The notes under the pieces were generated by a model. It was not told the origin of the DNA. It did no database searches and saw only the letters and a list, made by a program, of their open reading frames with translations. A stretch of 64,000 nucleotides of DNA, from contig OZ024786.1 of NCBI GenBank assembly GCA_964017065.1, positions 604,888-668,887 of the forward strand, in the 5' to 3' direction. Positions 47,259-59,249 of this stretch are shown piece after piece (within the stretch, counting starts at the first letter, position 1; each line of letters begins with the position of its first letter). The stretch is from Haliclona indistincta (lineage: Eukaryota > Porifera > Demospongiae > Haplosclerida > Chalinidae). A program made the position numbers and the translations under genes.

Positions 47259-49103
47259 CACAATGCGAACAAAAAATCACCTGGCTTGCCATCGAGAGAT
47301 TCTCTCCGTGTGTCGAGAGACCGAGAATGGCGTGGAATAGATTGAACTCGCGACTGAACTGTAGCTCCATGAGCCGCCATGAGCATGAGCTCGCTTGTAG
47401 CTGCCACACCCATGGATGATCACGTGGTATATACGGTGATGGGCACGGGCCCGCCGAAAATTAACGGTGTCCGTGTAGACCGTAATCAGACAAAATACCG
47501 TTCGCGACCGTACCAGACGAATTATACGGTAACCGGTAAAATCCGTGTAATCGAAGCGGTTTTGCTGTGAAAACTATCCACAGTTGACTGCCTATAAGCT
47601 GATAGGTGACAGGATAGCAGGGTATCATGTCTAAAGAAATTGTGTAAGCAAGCTATGGACGCTATCTCGCTCGTCTACGAGCTGTGCCCTACACTCGAAC
47701 TCGACACGCCCAGTTGATTGGTAGTCAGCACTGATTGCATAACGCATTGTGATTGCTGTACAGAAAGGTACAACAGCTGCAGTTTAACTTTGCTATGTAT
47801 GTGAAATAGCGGCATTCCACCGAGGCATCTGCACCTTAGGTGCCTAGTTTTACAAACACTGGGTTACTCATTGGAAGCCACGCCCCCACACTTTTGGCTG
47901 TTGCAGCTTGCGCGATCAAGAGACGAACGCAGGGTTACTGAATTTTGGTGATTGTGATAGACATGAGATGGCTCTAATCAGCCGACGTGCATAAATTGCA
48001 CTGAAACAATATCATGAGTTGCCGAACATAGATTGCTCGACCCCGGGGTCTTTGGAAAAGAAAATTACCCGGACGGCAAGACGAGAGCTTTTCAATTGTA
48101 GCTCGTTGTAATGCTGATGGATAAAGGTGTTTGCAGTACTGACTTGCAATCCCGCCCTATTCGTCTATCAGTCACTAGGACTGGTGCCGGATAATAGATT
48201 GCTTTTGCCGAACTTCAATGTTTTCGGCTACCCACTTTCTTCGTCTCCACAGTAGACAAAGAAGCAGTTACGAGCTGCATATTTGCAATGCAGGCAGAGG
48301 AAGTGTGTGTATATATACGTCGGTCAAATGTAATCTGTGTAGCGTATTTGCAAGTGTACGAACGAGTGGCCGATAATAGATCAGTGATGGCCGAATATAG
48401 CCTGGTTTACTCTAACCACGCCCTAGTCTAGGATAGCACAGCAGAGCATGTTCAGTTAGCATACTAAGTACTGCGTTAGTTCTTTGCAACAAGAGTCCAG
48501 GACACTGTAGAGAGGCTGGGCGGCTATCCTACGCACGCTTCAGCTCTCAAATATTCAGCTTGCCTTCAACCAGTATTTTCTGATTCTTTGCTCGCATCTT
48601 CCTACAATTGTAAACTCCGATCGCTAGGTGTTCGTTTTGACCATTAGCAATAACTTCGAATGTTCAGCAAACTGAACAAGCTGCCAAAACAACTTACAAC
48701 TACTAAGGGGCGGGAAACTTGAAACCAATTTTGGGGCGTGGTATTGAGGGCGGTGCAAGACAATAGGGCGGAGCAAACAATAATGGTTATAGTGTACGGA
48801 TAATATACTGAAGTGATTACTAAAATAATATCCGGAGATTTCTTTCGGTGATTTCAGATTTCTGATTTCAAACCGCGATTTCAGATTTCAAACTGTGATT
48901 TCTGACTTCAACTGAGATTTCCGATTTCAGTTAGTGATTTCAACTGTGCATGTACGAGATTTCACGAGTGTCGGACCCCTCGTTCACTGAACTTGAGGTC
49001 AGTCCAGTAATCCAGTAGTCCACTCCTGAGTGGTCCATTCCAGTCGTCCATTCCAGTCGCTCCAGTCCAGCGAATTCTGATACCCCATAGCCAGGCTACT
49101 GTG
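47259..49103. other. Intergenic region, no gene seen
   Basis: This divergent interval lies between the minus-strand membrane-protein gene and the plus-strand NLR-like gene, and so should hold both promoters. It contains one copy of the dispersed motif CCACCGAGGCATCTGCACC (47818) and a run of GATTTC/GATTTCAGATTTC repeats at about 48837-48960, just upstream of the NLR first exon. Confidence 0.5.
48837..48960 (+). repeat. GATTTCAGATTTC-type short repeats upstream of NLR-like gene
   Basis: About eight imperfect units of 13-20 bases, each built from GATTTC and a variable spacer, end some 145 bases before the start codon. They could be a decayed microsatellite or a promoter-proximal array. Confidence 0.6.
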
Positions 49104-52100
49104 ATGTTGCTAAGGCTCCTTCTGTCTGGGGACGTTGAGCTGAATCCTGGTCCCGAACCAGTGAGATTAGGTGAGTAGCCGCACCGTACAAAACGCGATA
49201 TAGTTACAGCTGTTGTCTCCTTAGAAGAAAGGCTTACTCTTCTCAAGCTACAGTGCTTCCAGTTCACTAATGCTAATGGGAAGCAGAAGAGGATTAACAT
49301 CATTGAAGCCACAGCATCACAATGGAGAGAACTAGGAACAGCTCTGAAGCTAGAAAGCTATCAACTCAACAACATTGAGAGTGACTACCATCGTGTGAAG
49401 GATCGCTGTCGTGTTGTTCTAGAAACATGGCTCAATGATAGTGATGATCCACCAACATGGCGTACTCTACTGCTAGCAATGAGAGATGCTGGATCCACTA
49501 GCATGATAGCACAGCAAGTATGGAGAGCACTGACTGATGGAGAAGGTGAGTATGTGGTAATAAAACCTAACTACATAATCCAGTTACCCTGTATAAACTA
49601 CAATCCTTTTTAGATATGCCAATGCTACCAGAAATAACATCCACAAGAAAATGGCTTCTACTAGCAGCCATTTTCCTAGTTCTTTCAATCATGGGTGCAT
49701 TCATAATTCTTGATCCTGTGAGTTCTTCTTGTCCATTGCTTTCTGACTCAATTTTAGAATACCAGAAATATCTGAAAGAGTATTACGGAGAGTATGATTA
49801 CCCTCTGTACTCAAAACCTGTATTCTCGACAAATGAAAATCGTCCCAAGCAACCAATCAATATAGTGCTTTTTCTAAAAGAAAAGAATGAAACTGATTCT
49901 TCATATATTGAGCTGCAGCAATTACTCACAAATGGAAGTGTTAATGAACTAAAAAAACTGAAACAATCTATTAGAGTGGATCAGATTGGTTCTAGAAATG
50001 GAAAGAACAAGGCCGCAAAATTTGTACTGATAGAGGGTGGTCCAGGAATGGGTAAATCAACATTATGTTGGCAGTTGTGTAGACTATGGAGAGAAGGCAA
50101 GCTACAGTGGGATCTAATGGTGATTGTTGAGCTGAGAGATGAGAGCACTCGTAGAGCAAGCAGTCTTTATGATCTCCTCTACCATCCTGATGATGAGACT
50201 AGACTGGCCATTGAACAGGACATTAAGAAACGAGAAGGAGAGGGATTGCTCATATTTCTTGATGGATATGATGAACTGTCCAATGAACAACAAAACGAGC
50301 TTTCATTGGTTCATAAAATATTGACCAATAAACTGCTTCGTAAGGCCACAGTTGTGGTTACCAGTCGACCTCATGCTATTGAAAGACTTCCATCTCAGTT
50401 TAAGCAAGGTTTAAATCAGCACATTGCAATAGCTGGTTTCAATGAGACTGACATACACGCATACACTACTTTAGCATGCAAGGACAATCAAGACTTACTA
50501 GAAGACCTACGTTCTTATGTGGATAGTCATCCTTTTATATTATCTGTCATGTACAATCCCCTTCACTGCTCTATTGTAACAGAGCTATATATACAGTACT
50601 GGCAGAATGGACCACGAAGGGGATTTGCTCCTCAGACTTTAACAGAACTTTATAATGCTCTTCTCTTGAACATTTTGAGACGCTATTTGCCTAGCAACCA
50701 GACTCAGAATTTCCATGATCTGTCTGATCTTTCTCAAGATGTCTACACTAATCTGATGCAACTAGCTGAAGTTGCTGCACAGGGACTACAAAAAAGACAG
50801 TTCATGTTCACTAATCTTTCGTGTGCTAGTCTTGGCCTAATGAAGTCAGTGAGAAAGCTTTATGACATCCGAGCAAAGCAACCAGCAGTTCACACATTCC
50901 TTCACCTCACATTACAGGAGTACCTAGCAGCTTTATATTGGTCTGAGTATCGTGATAGACAACCAAAAACGTTTCTTGATTCTGAAATCAGAAATTGTAT
51001 GTCAATTAAAATGCCGAATAGTGAACTACATCGACCGTTCTGTTTATTTTTTGCTGGTCTCACAAAAAAGAAGATTGACATCGAACAGACTAAGCAAATG
51101 AAATACTTCTTTATTCCTCAGATGTGTGAGATGCTATTCGAGGCTCAGTCTTCTGATTTACTCTTTAATGGCTCAACAGTTATGTTACCTGCAACCAATA
51201 CTGGTAATTTTTCTCAGCAGTTTGTGAACGATCTCATTGAAGCTCCACTGACCTCATTTGCAACAGCATACTGTTTTGTACGGAACAGTGACAGTACCTC
51301 AACTTGGATTCTTACTATAAATGAAAGGAACCACCTGCAAAGGTTGGCAGATGGTATGCATTCAGCCTATAGAGATGAAACCTGGAAAGAGAAAGATACA
51401 CCTTCACTGAGGCTGCATCTCACTCACAACATCAATGATATTCTTGAAGTCTTTCCCAGACTTTATCCCTTCACAAAATCGATAACTCAACTTAACTTGT
51501 CTGGTGATCTCAATGAAAAAGGAACTCTTATCATGAAAAAACTCAGCTACTATTGTCCCAAACTGGCCTCACTGCTCATTACTAGAAAAAGCTTTCGACC
51601 AGATGTGTTTCAGCTTCCAAAGGATATGGACCTGACCAGAGTCACTGTGTTTCTTCCCTCTGATGAGAAACTGTTACACAACCTCCACCTCTACCAAGCT
51701 GTTACTGAGCTTAGAATATGGGCGGAAAGAAGGTATGTTTGCTGTTTTAATTATAAAAGATCTTTATTTTTATATGGGGTTATTGAGTTAAAAACACAAA
51801 GTTATGTTTAATTGGTATAATAGCTCAACAGCCTTGGTGTAGAAAGCTGTGAAATTGTAAAAATTACACGCATGTATTATAATAATAGTAGTAATAGTTA
51901 ATCATAATTATGAATTCTAGTTAGGTTGTCGTTTTTTTCATTACAGTTGCAATTCTGGACTGATGGACATATGTAACTCATTGCTACTAATCTTACCCAA
52001 ACTACATGGAGAGTTACCACAAGTATACTTGATCTCAAAAGATGTCTTAATGTTGGATCAATGTGTGTTAGACATCGCTTGGAAGTTGAGAAAAGCCGTT

Positions 52101-52406
52101 TTACTGTACACTCTTGAAAATCATTACAAGTCGCGCTACAGATCAAAACTTCTAAAATTCTATGACAGATTTGATCAAATACAAGCCACAGAATTTCTCC
52201 GAGTGCCGAAGAAAGATCTATTTCAGTATCAAAGAGTCTTGATCAGTGGAGCTATCGATTGTGATGCAGCAGTGATGTTGATTCAAGCAATGGAGACCAA
52301 GCCTGCTATTGCAAAGAGACTAGTGTTACATCTTAAGAAGAAATGCAAGAATGCTTTAGCTAATGTAAAATACTCAAAAAACACAGTGAAGTTAATATTT
52401 TTGTAA
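49104..52406 (+). CDS. NLR-like protein: 2A-like peptide, Death, TM, NACHT
   Basis: Four exons (49104-49170, 49225-49545, 49614-51732, 51947-52406) with matching phases give 988 residues. An in-frame stop at 49008 and no other ATG in between fix the start. Residues 1-17 read MLLRLLLSGDVELNPGP, a leucine-rich stretch running straight into a consensus 2A-like motif D(V/I)ExNPGP. A Death-fold domain follows (about 45-125; WRELGTALKL, PTWRTLLLAMRDAG). A strong transmembrane segment, WLLLAAIFLVLSIMGAFIIL, lies at about 143-162. The NACHT NTPase carries P-loop GGPGMGKST (about 271-279), Walker B LLIFLDGYDEL (about 341-351) and TVVVTSRPHA. The C-terminal 350 residues are helical with weak leucine periodicity and no clear LRR array. 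Known NLRs sense microbial or stress signals; a 2A element could make two N-terminal forms. The 2A function is inferred from the motif. Confidence 0.9.
49131..49154 (+). other. 2A-like ribosome-skipping motif (GDVELNPGP)
   Basis: Codons for DVELNPGP end at residue 17 of the NLR-like protein; the break would fall between Gly16 and Pro17. In known 2A peptides this motif stops peptide-bond formation while translation continues. Only 16 residues precede the break here, as in reported sea urchin NLR genes, where the 2A region was proposed to double as a signal sequence. Confidence 0.85.
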
Positions 52407-54920: not shown

Positions 54921-55157
54921 TGTAGCGTTCGCGTTGACCTGCGCGAGTTCACCAGGGTATGGGCCACAATACTCAATGTGAATTATGACACAGAGGGAGC
55001 AGAGAAGACAGGAGAAGAATGATGTAAACAAGGGTGATTCAGTTTATATACAACCATGACAAAACTACAAGCAACCGAATAATGACAAGACACATGACAT
55101 ATGACAATGGCCCATGTATTCTTATTTTACAAGCAGAGCAGACATTATGTCTCCACA
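54921..55157 (-). repeat. 3' LTR of Ty3/gypsy element
   Basis: This 237-base direct repeat, beginning TG and ending CA, appears identical to 59013-59249. The element reads on the minus strand, so this is its 3' LTR. The purine tract TGAGAAAGGGAGA (complement of 55158-55170) abuts it as polypurine primer. The pol frame ends 13 bases inside. Confidence 0.95.
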
Positions 55158-58100
55158 TCTCCCTTTCTCACGAGGGCTTGTGAACGGGATCTGGTCATGA
55201 TAGGACTGCGTTTGATAGGAGCCGATGCAGGTCTCTTTGGAGGAGGAGAATGTGAGAGTGGAATGATGTGTTGACGATTTCTTCTCACGAGCCCACCTGC
55301 TGCTGGTTCAACCATGTATGATCGTGGGGCTTCAGCAGGTCTGACTGTGGTGCCGGTTACTCTGCGATCACCAAAGTCTACCAGAACAGGAGACCCATCA
55401 GCTAACTCAGGGAGAGTTGTAGTGCGATGCCGACGATTGTAATCTTGTGACATTCTGTCTTTATACAGCTGGTCTGCCTGTCGGTATTGTTCAAGATAAT
55501 TCCACTCTGGAACAAGGCTCTTTGGTAGCTGAGGCAGGTTGGTGTTGATCTTCCTCCCCATACACAATTCGGCTGGACTTTGATTGCACCATTTGAGTGG
55601 AGTGGAACGATAGATCATCAGAGAAAGAAATAGGTCGTCAGATTTCTTGAGCAAGTTCTTGATGGTTTGAACAGCTCTCTCAACCTGTCCGTTACTTTGA
55701 GGAAAGTGAGGGCTGCTAGTCTGATGCTTGAAACCATATGAGGAGGCGAATGCTTTGATTTCTTCACAGTCGAACTGCGGCCCATTATCGCTCCTAAGAA
55801 CAGCCGGAATTCCGTGTCTCGAAAAAATTGCTTTTAGTGCATTGATGACACTAGATGCTGTAGTCGATGTTAGCTTCACCAATTCAGGAAACTTCGAGAA
55901 ATAGTCCACTACCAAAAGATATGTTGAGCCTTTGAGGTAGAACAGATCAGCTGCTATTTTCTCCCATGGGTAGTCAGGCAAGGGGGTAGGAAGAAGTGGT
56001 TCCTTTCCTTGAACCCGATGTTCTTTGCAGATCCTGCATTCTTGGATCACCCTCTTGAGTTGACCTGCCATGCCTGGCCACCATACAGATGTTTTGGCTC
56101 TCATCAAACATTTCTGGATTCCCATATGACCAGTGTGTATCTTGCTCAATGTCTCTGCCTGCAGGGACAAAGGTACCACAATACATGAATCATACAGCAA
56201 CAGGTCATCGACCACAGTGAGCTTATGTCTGGCTCCCCAGTAAGGGTGGAGCTGTCTAGTGTGGATACGTTGCTCTGGCCATCCCTTTAGGCAGAAGGTG
56301 ACGACCTGTTGACAGATGGTATCTGCTGCTTGAGCTGCTTTGTAAACATCCACACGCTCAGAGGAAGCTGGAAGAGAGGCAATAACTGCATGGATAAAAC
56401 AGTCGACGTCTCTGGTAGAAATGTCTCCTTCAAGAGTTGGAAGCAGATTTCGAGAAAGAGTGTCAGCTGTATTCAACAATTTTCCAGGTACATGTTCCAC
56501 AGAGTATGTAAATCTTGAAAGACGAAGACGGAAACGAAGTATTCTTGGTGGCAAATTATCCAGATTCTTGTTGCCAAGTAGAGACACTAGTGGCTTGTGG
56601 TCAGTCTCTAGCACAAAATGCTTTCCAAGAACATAATCAGTGAATCTCTCTGTAGCCCAAGTGCACGCCAAAGCTTCTTTTTCAACCTGAGCATAACGGC
56701 CTTCAGTGCTGGTTAAAGCTCTAGAGGCATAGGCAACCGGCTTCCAGAGATTGTCAGACTGTTTCTGCAGCAAGACGGCTCCAAGTCCATATGATGAACT
56801 ATCGGCAGAGATTCTTGTCTCCCGTTTCGTGTCATACAATGCCAGAACTGATGGCTTCTGGAGTTCTTCTTTTACATTCTGAAACGCTTGATCCTGCGTG
56901 GGCCCCCAACTCCAGGTATTCTTTGTACTCAGCAGATCTCGAAGAGGCTTTGTTAACTCAGCTAGCTTGCTCGAGAATTTTCCCAATTGATTCACCATCC
57001 CTAGGAAGCGGCGTAACTCTGGTATCCCTTCAGGAGGTTGCATCTTGGCAATTGCGCTAGTCTTGTCTGGATCTGGAGCAACTCCATCCTCATTCAAAAT
57101 ATGACCCAGAAACTTCAGCTCAGTCTGTCGAAACGCACACTTCTCCAGATTTAGTGTAGTTCCTGCAGAAACCATTCTGTCCAGAACTGCCTTTAGTCGG
57201 ATGTCGTGTTGTTGCTCATCTGCAGCATGGACAAGAACATCATCAATTAGACATACAACCCCCTCTAGCCCCTCTAATAACTTATTCATTCTTCTCTGAA
57301 ACAGCTCAGGGGCACTGGACAGTCCGAAAGGTAGCTTGTTAAAGTGATACCGCCCAAAGGGAGTAAGAAAGGTGGTAAGCGGTCTGGAAGAGGGATCAAG
57401 TGGGATTTGCCAGAAGCCACTGTTCGCATCCAATTTGGAGAACACCTTTGAGCCAGACAGTTGAGCGAGAACACTTTCTACTGTTGGTAGAGGGTGAGTC
57501 TGTCTCATGACACTCTCGTTTAGGGGTTTTAAGTCGACACAAATACGGACGCCACCAGACTTCTTAGGGACTGCAACCATGCCAGCACACCAAGGCGTAG
57601 CTTCTTCAATTCTTGAGATAACTCCCGACCTTTCCATTCTCGAAAGCTCTTCTTTAACTTTATCTTGAAGCGGATACGGAACCCTTCTTGGGACGAAAAT
57701 GGAATGAGGCTTGTGATCCTGAGATAATTCTATCACGTATGGCTCTCCTAGAGTTCCTAAGCCTTCAAATACTCCAGGATATTCAGCAACAATTCTCTCT
57801 CTGTAGCTTTCCATTGAGTTCATTCTTGCCACCAGCTGCAGAGCTTGGATCGCAGGTAGACCAAGCAAATTGCTTTTCAGGCCCTTGACAACGAAGACCT
57901 GCTGCTGGGAGGTCTTGTCCTTAACAGTGAGAGGTTGCGTGAACTGTCCCAGAACCGATAGAGGGGAACGGTCAGGTCCATACAGCACCTTGCTTGCCTT
58001 CTGCAGATGAATTCCCTTCAGCTTCCTAAAAGAGAAATCAGAAATAGCAGTAACTTCAGCCCCAGTATCTAGTTTGAACTGGACTGTTTCCTTTCCTACT

Positions 58101-58201
58101 TGCACTGCAACCGTCCAGGTCTCTGGAGCAGAGGTATCATCAGTCACGCCATCCAGGAAGCCACCTATCACAGTCCGGCAAACCCGTACTCGATTCATCA
58201 T
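55145..58201 (-). CDS. pol: Pol polyprotein of Ty3/gypsy element
   Basis: A frame of 1018 residues contains an aspartic protease (LDTGAEVTAIS, about 44-54), reverse transcriptase with the catalytic Asp pair in CLIDDVLVH (about 316-324), RNase H (ADSSSYGLGAVL and later ETDHKPL), and integrase. Integrase has an HHCC zinc motif (H..H in HTGHMG, C..C in ECRICKEH) and DDE core residues in VVDYFSKF, RSDNGPQF and QSNGQVERA. The 5' end overlaps gag by 62 bases in the +1 frame, and a stop at 58208-58210 precedes the ATG at 58201. Expression therefore needs a +1 shift within the overlap or separate initiation. The stop lies 13 bases inside the 3' LTR. Confidence 0.95.
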   Translation of the reverse strand: MMNRVRVCRTVIGGFLDGVTDDTSAPETWTVAVQVGKETVQFKLDTGAEVTAISDFSFRKLKGIHLQKASKVLYGPDRSPLSVLGQFTQPLTVKDKTSQQQVFVVKGLKSNLLGLPAIQALQLVARMNSMESYRERIVAEYPGVFEGLGTLGEPYVIELSQDHKPHSIFVPRRVPYPLQDKVKEELSRMERSGVISRIEEATPWCAGMVAVPKKSGGVRICVDLKPLNESVMRQTHPLPTVESVLAQLSGSKVFSKLDANSGFWQIPLDPSSRPLTTFLTPFGRYHFNKLPFGLSSAPELFQRRMNKLLEGLEGVVCLIDDVLVHAADEQQHDIRLKAVLDRMVSAGTTLNLEKCAFRQTELKFLGHILNEDGVAPDPDKTSAIAKMQPPEGIPELRRFLGMVNQLGKFSSKLAELTKPLRDLLSTKNTWSWGPTQDQAFQNVKEELQKPSVLALYDTKRETRISADSSSYGLGAVLLQKQSDNLWKPVAYASRALTSTEGRYAQVEKEALACTWATERFTDYVLGKHFVLETDHKPLVSLLGNKNLDNLPPRILRFRLRLSRFTYSVEHVPGKLLNTADTLSRNLLPTLEGDISTRDVDCFIHAVIASLPASSERVDVYKAAQAADTICQQVVTFCLKGWPEQRIHTRQLHPYWGARHKLTVVDDLLLYDSCIVVPLSLQAETLSKIHTGHMGIQKCLMRAKTSVWWPGMAGQLKRVIQECRICKEHRVQGKEPLLPTPLPDYPWEKIAADLFYLKGSTYLLVVDYFSKFPELVKLTSTTASSVINALKAIFSRHGIPAVLRSDNGPQFDCEEIKAFASSYGFKHQTSSPHFPQSNGQVERAVQTIKNLLKKSDDLFLSLMIYRSTPLKWCNQSPAELCMGRKINTNLPQLPKSLVPEWNYLEQYRQADQLYKDRMSQDYNRRHRTTTLPELADGSPVLVDFGDRRVTGTTVRPAEAPRSYMVEPAAGGLVRRNRQHIIPLSHSPPPKRPASAPIKRSPIMTRSRSQALVRKGDVET

Positions 58202-59123
58202 TGGTTGTTACATGGGAAATATTCTTGGTGCGACACTGAGACTCGAAATGACCTCTTTTCCTACAGCGGTGACAAGTAGCATCTCGTGCTGGACACTCCG
58301 CTCGCCCGTGTGGTTCTCGTCCGCACCTCGTGCACCTGACATCCGACTGATGATGAGTTGGTTGAGGACGGCGGCGAAAATTTGATCGTCTGCTATCGCC
58401 ACGTCTGCTCCGCGTCCCCTGAAGTGCATCCACCTCAATAGGATTTTCTCTGCTGTCGCCCGCGGATAGTTTCTGGGTTTCCTGGACAGCTTCTGTCTGT
58501 AGAATCATCTTTTTAGCTTTGGTCAAGTCCAAATCTGCAGTCAACTGTAGGCGCTTCGAGAGCTGAGCATCTCGAATACCGATAACCAGACGGTCGCGAA
58601 TGTCTTGTTCTTTCTGTTCTCGGCTGGCGTAGCCGCATCTTCCCGCAAGAGTATACAGTGCTAAGATGTACTGCTCTGCCGACTCTCCTGGCTGCTGCTT
58701 TCGTGAATTGAATTGCGCCCGTTCGAAGATGATGTTCCTCCGTACACCGAAGTACTCGTCGAAACTTGCAATAACAGCGTCGTACACACCTCGGTTCTCC
58801 TCGTCTATACCAGTGGTCTCCAGTACGTCTTGCGCCTCAGGGCCCATGGAGTACAACAAGGTACTGATTTGTCTTCCTTCACTTCGGTCAATAAGTCCTG
58901 AAGCCACTCTGAATTGTTCAAACCTCTGCTTCCACTTCGGCCATTGCGCCGGCTGGAGAAAGTCGAACGTCTGCATAGGCTGTAGATGCATACCCGCCAT
59001 CTGCTGCCACCATGTAGCGTTCGCGTTGACCTGCGCGAGTTCACCAGGGTATGGGCCACAATACTCAATGTGAATTATGACACAGAGGGAGCAGAGAAGA
59101 CAGGAGAAGAATGATGTAAACAA
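58140..59123 (-). CDS. gag: Gag protein of Ty3/gypsy element
   Basis: The frame is open from an ATG inside the 5' LTR (59123) through the primer-binding site. The natural start is more likely the ATG at 59000 (MAGMHLQPM), giving about 286 residues. A capsid-like region (WPKWKQRFEQFRVASGL, GESAEQYILALYTLAGRC) is followed by a basic stretch and two zinc knuckles, CTRCGREPHGRAEC and CHRCRKRGHFESQC. It binds and packages element RNA. Confidence 0.9.
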   Translation of the reverse strand: MFTSFFSCLLCSLCVIIHIEYCGPYPGELAQVNANATWWQQMAGMHLQPMQTFDFLQPAQWPKWKQRFEQFRVASGLIDRSEGRQISTLLYSMGPEAQDVLETTGIDEENRGVYDAVIASFDEYFGVRRNIIFERAQFNSRKQQPGESAEQYILALYTLAGRCGYASREQKEQDIRDRLVIGIRDAQLSKRLQLTADLDLTKAKKMILQTEAVQETQKLSAGDSRENPIEVDALQGTRSRRGDSRRSNFRRRPQPTHHQSDVRCTRCGREPHGRAECPARDATCHRCRKRGHFESQCRTKNISHVTTNDESSTGLPDCDRWLPGWRD

Positions 59124-59249
59124 GGGTGATTCAGTTTATATACAACCATGACAAAACTACAAGCAACCGAATAATGACAAGACACATGACATATGACAAT
59201 GGCCCATGTATTCTTATTTTACAAGCAGAGCAGACATTATGTCTCCACA
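59013..59249 (-). repeat. 5' LTR of Ty3/gypsy element
   Basis: This is the partner of 54921-55157 with the same length and termini. It should carry the element's promoter on the minus strand. Confidence 0.95.

Follow-up and report, generated by a model that had tools for sequence, protein, structure and literature searches.

The first exon of a predicted Death-NACHT receptor gene of the sponge Haliclona indistincta very probably encodes a working StopGo (2A) element. This assessment rests on three results, the fidelity of the core motif across the genome, the upstream motif that accompanies it and the silent-only divergence of the element between paralogues. The gene lies in the window, i.e., the whole 64,000-nucleotide stretch of DNA that was analysed (G000:C4:604888-668887 of a 144-Mb genome). 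At a StopGo element, the nascent chain is released at a Gly and synthesis restarts at the next residue, a Pro. The exon 1 peptide (49104-49170) is read as MLLRLLLSG, DVELNPG, the Pro and finally EPVRL, with the predicted skip site between the Gly that ends at 49151 and the Pro that starts at 49152. The features of the gene are collected in Table 1.

Table 1. Features of the receptor gene and of its StopGo exon, in positions of the window.
Feature	Position	Strand	Remark
In-frame TAA	49008..49010	+	32 codons upstream of the predicted start
Exon 1	49104..49170	+	67 nt = 22 codons + 1 nt; encodes MLLRLLLSGDVELNPGPEPVRL
Upstream StopGo hexapeptide RLLLSG (p6-p11)	49113..49130	+	LLLLSG-like class, followed by D at p12
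StopGo core octapeptide DVELNPGP	49131..49154	+	matches the core pattern (D/G/C/N)(V/I)ExNPGP
Intron 1 (predicted)	49171..49224	+	GT-AG, phase 1
Exon 2, Death domain	49225..49545	+	Pfam stretch aa 50-114 = 49305-49499
Exon 3, membrane helix and NACHT	49614..51732	+	predicted gene model, Pfam
Transmembrane helix (predicted) LLLAAIFLVLSIMGAFIIL	49655..49711	+	aa 144-162; Kyte-Doolittle 2.98 over 19 residues
NACHT domain	50024..50464	+	Pfam stretch aa 267-413
Exon 4, C-terminal part and stop	51947..52406	+	predicted gene model

The four-exon model, with predicted GT-AG introns, gives a product of 988 aa with no internal stop, the start codon and the splice sites being predictions from the sequence. 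The donor GTGAGT directly follows exon 1, and intron 1 terminates with CTCCTTAG at 49224. Pfam detects in the product a NACHT domain (PF05729, E 9e-22) and a Death domain (PF00531, E 4.5e-8, above its cut-off), which bears out the preliminary description of this DNA in placing a 2A-like sequence at the predicted N-terminus of a receptor of this kind. As no LRR family is found by Pfam at E<=0.001, a search that divergent repeats may escape, the product is named here a Death-NACHT receptor and not a bona fide NLR. The predicted membrane helix sits between the Death and NACHT domains; a comparable helix is present in the homologues P0002, P0003, P0004, P0006 and P0011, and absent from the predicted frames of P0005, P0010 and P0019. 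Upstream of exon 1, an 84-bp stretch (about 48899-48982) is 94% identical to one near the StopGo exon of a paralogue on C10 (L086), and is probably a dispersed repeat.

The full match of the 22-residue exon to the 2A consensus, on which the preliminary description was built, is confirmed: the core is the only match of its pattern in the window, and none of 100 shuffles contains one. Genome-wide, D(V/I/M)ExNPGP has 189 exact matches (91 starting with GAT and 98 with GAC) vs none for the reversed pattern. When the final Pro is removed from the pattern, 190 sites are found, of which 189 retain the Pro, and the reversed control gives one. When the Glu codon is left free, with a Gly in front, the number of sites is 203, and among the 100 matches listed the residue is E in 88, H in nine and Q in three. 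A natural viral element with His at the core Glu position is active at about 90% or more (PMC12846837). The nine His sites, all DVHPNPGP, form one cluster (G000:C3:16066669-16253730), and seven of them, including L094 and L095, have a Death match from the subfamily of the window receptor 67-80 nt downstream. Separately, 17 canonical cores and two Gln variants are found within about 15 kb on the minus strand (L019/L020, G000:C4:10637065-10652476), in short, mostly start-less open segments among which a 130-aa open frame recurs; this array could possibly consist of repeated mini-exons, perhaps of one gene, or result from decay.

The residues preceding the core are the strongest evidence, because they are absent from every search pattern. 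The DNA around all 189 cores was extracted and identical contexts were merged, giving 180 distinct contexts, 15 of which belong to the L019/L020 array and were left out. In the 165 others, (A/S/C)G stands at p10-p11, directly before the core, in 160 cases, compared with 24 of 1997 cases of D(V/I/M) in the remainder of this DNA, read in every frame. Among p6-p9, two or more residues are L, I, V, M or F in 160 of the 165, and p7 is Leu in 148. The five exceptions to (A/S/C)G are three copies of a leader AIGRRG, one QLIMSE and one LLLLGG; they represent three of the 29 leader clusters obtained at 50% identity over 20 residues, a crude rule applied to contexts that include paralogues and are therefore not independent. 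An LLLLSG-like upstream StopGo class ending in (A/S/C)G has been described in a 2026 survey, in which mutations of characteristic residues in the tested upstream motifs led, in almost all cases, to a near-complete loss of StopGo (PMC12846837). In the sea-urchin element SpNLR2A6, the L13V and L13A changes lower recoding substantially (Roulston 2016; PMC4981915), and L13 would correspond to p7 according to our own mapping. An in-frame Met is present within the open segment in 106 of the 165 contexts, 25 are closed by a stop without Met and 34 reach the end of the extracted DNA without Met, so that an N-terminal position is seen for part of the sites only.

The comparison with paralogues gives further support to a working StopGo element. 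The neighbour gene, L013 (C4:671 kb), was retrieved in two ways, through the motif and through its Death domain, and the two Death exons are 96% identical. The alignable block around exon 1 spans 49114-49175, from Arg4 (p6) to the donor, with 52 of 62 nt identical (84%), and nothing aligns upstream of Arg4 in blastn at E<=0.01. Over RLLLSGDVELNPGP (14 codons), all seven differences between the two genes are silent, with no replacement (P 2e-4 in a neutral simulation), and so are the four that separate the window gene from the C10 paralogue L086 over LLLSGDVELNPG (P 0.01). Directly after the core, the residues vary (EPV in the window gene vs DTA in a paralogue). The StopGo unit is thus conserved as a peptide, while the leader starts differently. 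An exchange of the sequence upstream is seen in one close pair, and the variety of leaders in the genome suggests more such exchanges, which are undated. The Death exon of L013 contains a frameshift, and this copy may be decaying; it is separated from the window receptor by two long open frames on the minus strand (window 55145-59135) that have, by eye, the look of a Ty3-type retroelement. The StopGo element is not universal in the Death subfamily, since eight of ten Death-domain relatives lacking the canonical core (L089-L093 and L096-L098) contain no NPG in the three frames over about 1.1 kb upstream. The remaining two, L094 and L095, have DVHPNPGP upstream, preceded by a strongly hydrophobic leader.

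An association of such cores with NACHT genes, for which a genome search had been proposed, was indeed found. Among the best 102 of 631 candidates scored in a Pfam NACHT scan, 22 places have a core on the same strand at most 6 kb upstream, vs two in the downstream control and none on the other strand, and the count rises to 30 when the DVHPNPGP sites are added. In a pooled NACHT set, 55 of 317 places have a core at most 5 kb upstream, vs four downstream and none on the other strand, and 200 circular shifts give a mean of 1.3 and a maximum of 7; two of the three pooled scans were queried with NACHT domains from 2A-bearing genes, and the set is biased toward such genes. At 8 kb, the pooled count is 60 upstream vs 23 in the downstream control, which increases because NACHT genes are clustered. 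Seen from the cores, 53 of the 189 have a listed NACHT place at most 5 kb downstream. As for the domain encoded after the StopGo exon, L018 gives a Pfam match to Death that stays below the cut-off of the family (E 0.00065). A CARD had been seen by eye in the exon following that of L015, L026, L023, L025, L010, L009 and L028, and was rejected, as no Pfam family is found there at E<=0.01.

The other cores include one located upstream of a mobile-element protein. The 2161-aa open frame of L021 (G000:C4:10777019-10786141, minus strand) encodes a Helitron-type protein according to Pfam (Helitron_like_N, 3e-35; PIF1, 9.6e-22; in addition OTU and Exo_endo_phos), and is preceded by a hydrophobic stretch and a StopGo core, a location that makes spread by transposons possible. 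At L080 and L088, a cysteine-rich, PHD-like stretch (by eye) follows the core, with the appearance of a retroelement ORF. 2A sequences reportedly occur in APE-type non-LTR retrotransposons, which are cellular mobile elements; the present case differs in that the core also stands before a Helitron protein and before many NACHT genes.

The preliminary description had interpreted the leucine-rich start of exon 1 as a signal sequence that could give one receptor two locations. The leader of the window gene consists of nine residues, with an Arg inside, and its longest run free of Pro, Gly and any charged or strongly polar residue, used here as a proxy for signal-peptide prediction, is four residues vs 12 in SpNLR2A6. 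The signal-peptide reading was therefore rejected for this leader and kept open for longer ones. The same run is five in L013 and nine in the C10 relative L086, the leader of L013 being no more hydrophobic than that of the window gene and the leader of L086 being more so. Hydrophobic leaders exist elsewhere, at L055, L010 and the His variant L094. The largest leader cluster contains 59 of the 165 contexts, 51 of which have a 19-residue core of at least 1.6 in the last 32 residues, whereas no member of the clusters of 25, 15, 8 and 7 sites has a hydrophobic core of 1.6. As the constant part is the StopGo unit and not hydrophobicity, we read the leucines of the window gene as StopGo motif and not as signal peptide.

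Part of the largest cluster carries a recognisable leader: WRAxIG or WRAxLG is present in the extracted open segment of 14 of its 59 contexts, many starts in this cluster lying beyond the extracted DNA. A protein search with the leader of L025, starting with MISVELWRARIG, gave 49 proteins, 46 of them with a canonical core; in the three others the core is changed to NPCP or NPGL, or the protein ends in an unrelated reading. This leader family, MISVELWRA(R/T)IG followed by a membrane segment, (L/I)IISG and the 2A sequence, comprises P0121-P0169 and is seen at L002, L004, L005, L007, L008, L024 and L025. Four of the 49 proteins, encoded on contigs shorter than 3 kb, could be those of a different species.

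The helix between the Death and NACHT domains is common in the subfamily P0001-P0083, and its possible orientation was approached with two indicators. The ratio of observed to expected sequons is 1.43 in 48 proteins with the helix and 1.02 in 62 without it. When the proteins are grouped by homology rank, a grouping chosen after the helix-split table was known, P0001-P0083 (82 scored) contain 286 sequons vs 153 occurrences of the reversed motif and 194.5 in shuffles, and P0084-P0120 (35 scored) contain 34 vs 56 and 58.9, respectively. Sequons occupy 61 alignment columns vs 51 for the reversed motif, and much of their excess thus comes from few shared columns. In a count limited to models with a helix score of at least 2.2 and an N-side flank, 25 proteins have more Lys and Arg on the N-side of the helix and four have more on the C-side, with six ties. 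These indicators suggest, as a lead, that the Death domain is inside and the NACHT domain outside (lumenal or extracellular). Such a position of NACHT, if true, would be unusual.

Taking all our results together, we consider it somewhat probable that this minimal StopGo first exon serves to free, or insulate, the N-terminus of the receptor from sequence encoded upstream. The exon would act as a minimal element directly after the start codon of a Death-TM-NACHT receptor: once the ribosome has completed MLLRLLLSGDVELNPG, formation of the Gly-Pro bond would be blocked by the nascent chain, still within the exit tunnel, a 16-residue peptide would be released and translation would resume, so that most receptors would begin with Pro-Glu-Pro-Val and have a free Death domain. 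The released peptide and the Pro-start of the receptor, both already pointed out in the preliminary description, do follow from the sequence if skipping occurs. The receptor would then be held at the membrane by its own helix, its Death domain being probably cytosolic. In such a scheme, the StopGo exon would be a modular first exon, an 'N-terminal insulator', and since the N-terminus of the receptor would be fixed irrespective of what lies upstream, 5' exons and promoters could be exchanged when genes duplicate. The occurrence of skipping in Haliclona, its efficiency, the topology and the advantage of this arrangement are what we infer from sequence data.

Two alternatives concern the nature and the position of the element itself. 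A chance match, or a functionless relic of a mobile element, is strongly disfavoured: the core ahead of the Helitron protein L021 and the 25 contexts without in-frame Met would fit a relic, but the genome-wide fidelity of the motif, the upstream motif and the silent-only divergence all argue against it. It is also rather unlikely that the gene begins in a different exon, in which case the ATG at 49104 would be internal or unused and a longer leader would precede the StopGo unit. The frame is open over 31 codons upstream of this ATG, with nine AG dinucleotides in 49011-49103, and open leaders reach about 190 residues elsewhere in the genome. On the other side stand the in-frame TAA at 49008, the G (a purine) at -3, the C10 paralogue, in which an in-frame ATG precedes the core by 17 residues and is itself closely preceded by a stop, and the failure of L013 to align upstream of the block. 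Two further ATGs upstream, at 48783 and 48950, open short frames that are both closed before 49104. The claim that exon 1 provides the true N-terminus is supported by the upstream stop and by the absence of any in-frame ATG between it and 49104 in the window sequence, while any of the nine AG dinucleotides could join an upstream exon. The StopGo reading would survive even in this case.

The other alternatives accept a StopGo element and assign it a different role. Dual targeting as in sea urchin, in which the unskipped leader would direct the receptor to the secretory pathway and the skipped form would be cytosolic, agrees with the behaviour of SpNLR2A6 reporters in mammalian and plant cells (PMC4981915) and with the hydrophobic leaders mentioned above (L055, L010, L094 and 51 of the 59 members of the largest cluster). 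We nevertheless regard it as improbable, since MLLRLLLSG has a nonpolar run of four residues vs 12, the Leu-rich hexapeptide is part of the StopGo motif (PMC12846837), the receptor has a membrane helix of its own and four of the clusters are devoid of any core of 1.6. The main rival to N-terminus insulation is control of dosage or by stress: the element would lower the output of the receptor because some ribosomes halt there for good, or because the state of eEF2 or of release factors shifts the ratio, so that the level or form of the receptor would become a readout of translation. Three outcomes of 2A have been described and a link with eEF2 and stress has been postulated by the same authors (PMC4981915), and conservation across families whose leaders differ is in keeping with a role in translation itself. 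This possibility, which we hold as a minority view, is compatible with N-terminus insulation and does not exclude it.

The closest known system is that of the sea urchin Strongylocentrotus purpuratus, as had been noted at the outset, and N-terminal 2A sequences on NLRs are already known from this animal: 85 of 241 NLR proteins have 2A-like sequences, these are N-terminal in 14 of 87 NCBI entries, and the elements are of 26 aa, 12 of the 14 being predicted signal sequences (PMC4981915). The window gene shares with SpNLR2A the D(V/I)ExNPGP motif at the N-terminus of Death-NACHT receptors and an L-rich stretch ending in SG. It differs by its unit, which with 16 residues before the Pro (p3-p18) falls two short of F2A and is also smaller than the sea-urchin elements, by the lack of a plausible hydrophobic core, by the helix between Death and NACHT, by the absence of LRR according to Pfam and by the animal in which it is found. 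With F2A and viral StopGo sequences (PMC12846837), it shares the core octapeptide, the LLLLSG-like upstream class and D at p12, but here the element belongs to a cellular gene, is N-terminal and has its own exon. The NLR repertoire of the sponge Dysidea avara likewise comprises large NACHT families, some with Death domains (PMC12909245), and the terms 'ribosome skipping' and 'signal peptide' do not occur in the main text of that article. Among the leading matches in the open-licence literature, no report of 2A in sponge NLRs was found, and none of a 2A-like sequence with a Helitron was found in the open-licence literature. What is new is thus the animal, the minimal form without plausible signal peptide, the receptor's own helix, the varied leaders and the Helitron.

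Cellular genes use StopGo only rarely according to the 2026 survey (PMC12846837), and the Haliclona genome, with its 189 cores, one of which stands ahead of each of at least 22 of the best 102 NACHT places, looks like a second cellular exception, of sea-urchin-like scale; as the sea-urchin figure is of similar order, this scale is not in itself new. The StopGo leucines persist in the window gene, where a signal peptide is implausible. As the same leucines are StopGo motif, re-examination is needed of the hydrophobic 'signal sequences' attributed to N-terminal 2A elements. One broader and tentative possibility is that StopGo is a standard first-exon device of innate receptors in this animal, in which unrelated leaders are swapped before a conserved unit and the N-terminus stays constant. 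On this reading, the membrane segment of the largest leader cluster, which stops immediately ahead of the skip site, would be turned by skipping into the tail anchor of an independent small protein, and the receptor would be freed, whereas it would stay anchored whenever skipping failed. The proportion of skipping would act as a switch that responds to the condition of the ribosome, e.g., during viral interference with translation.
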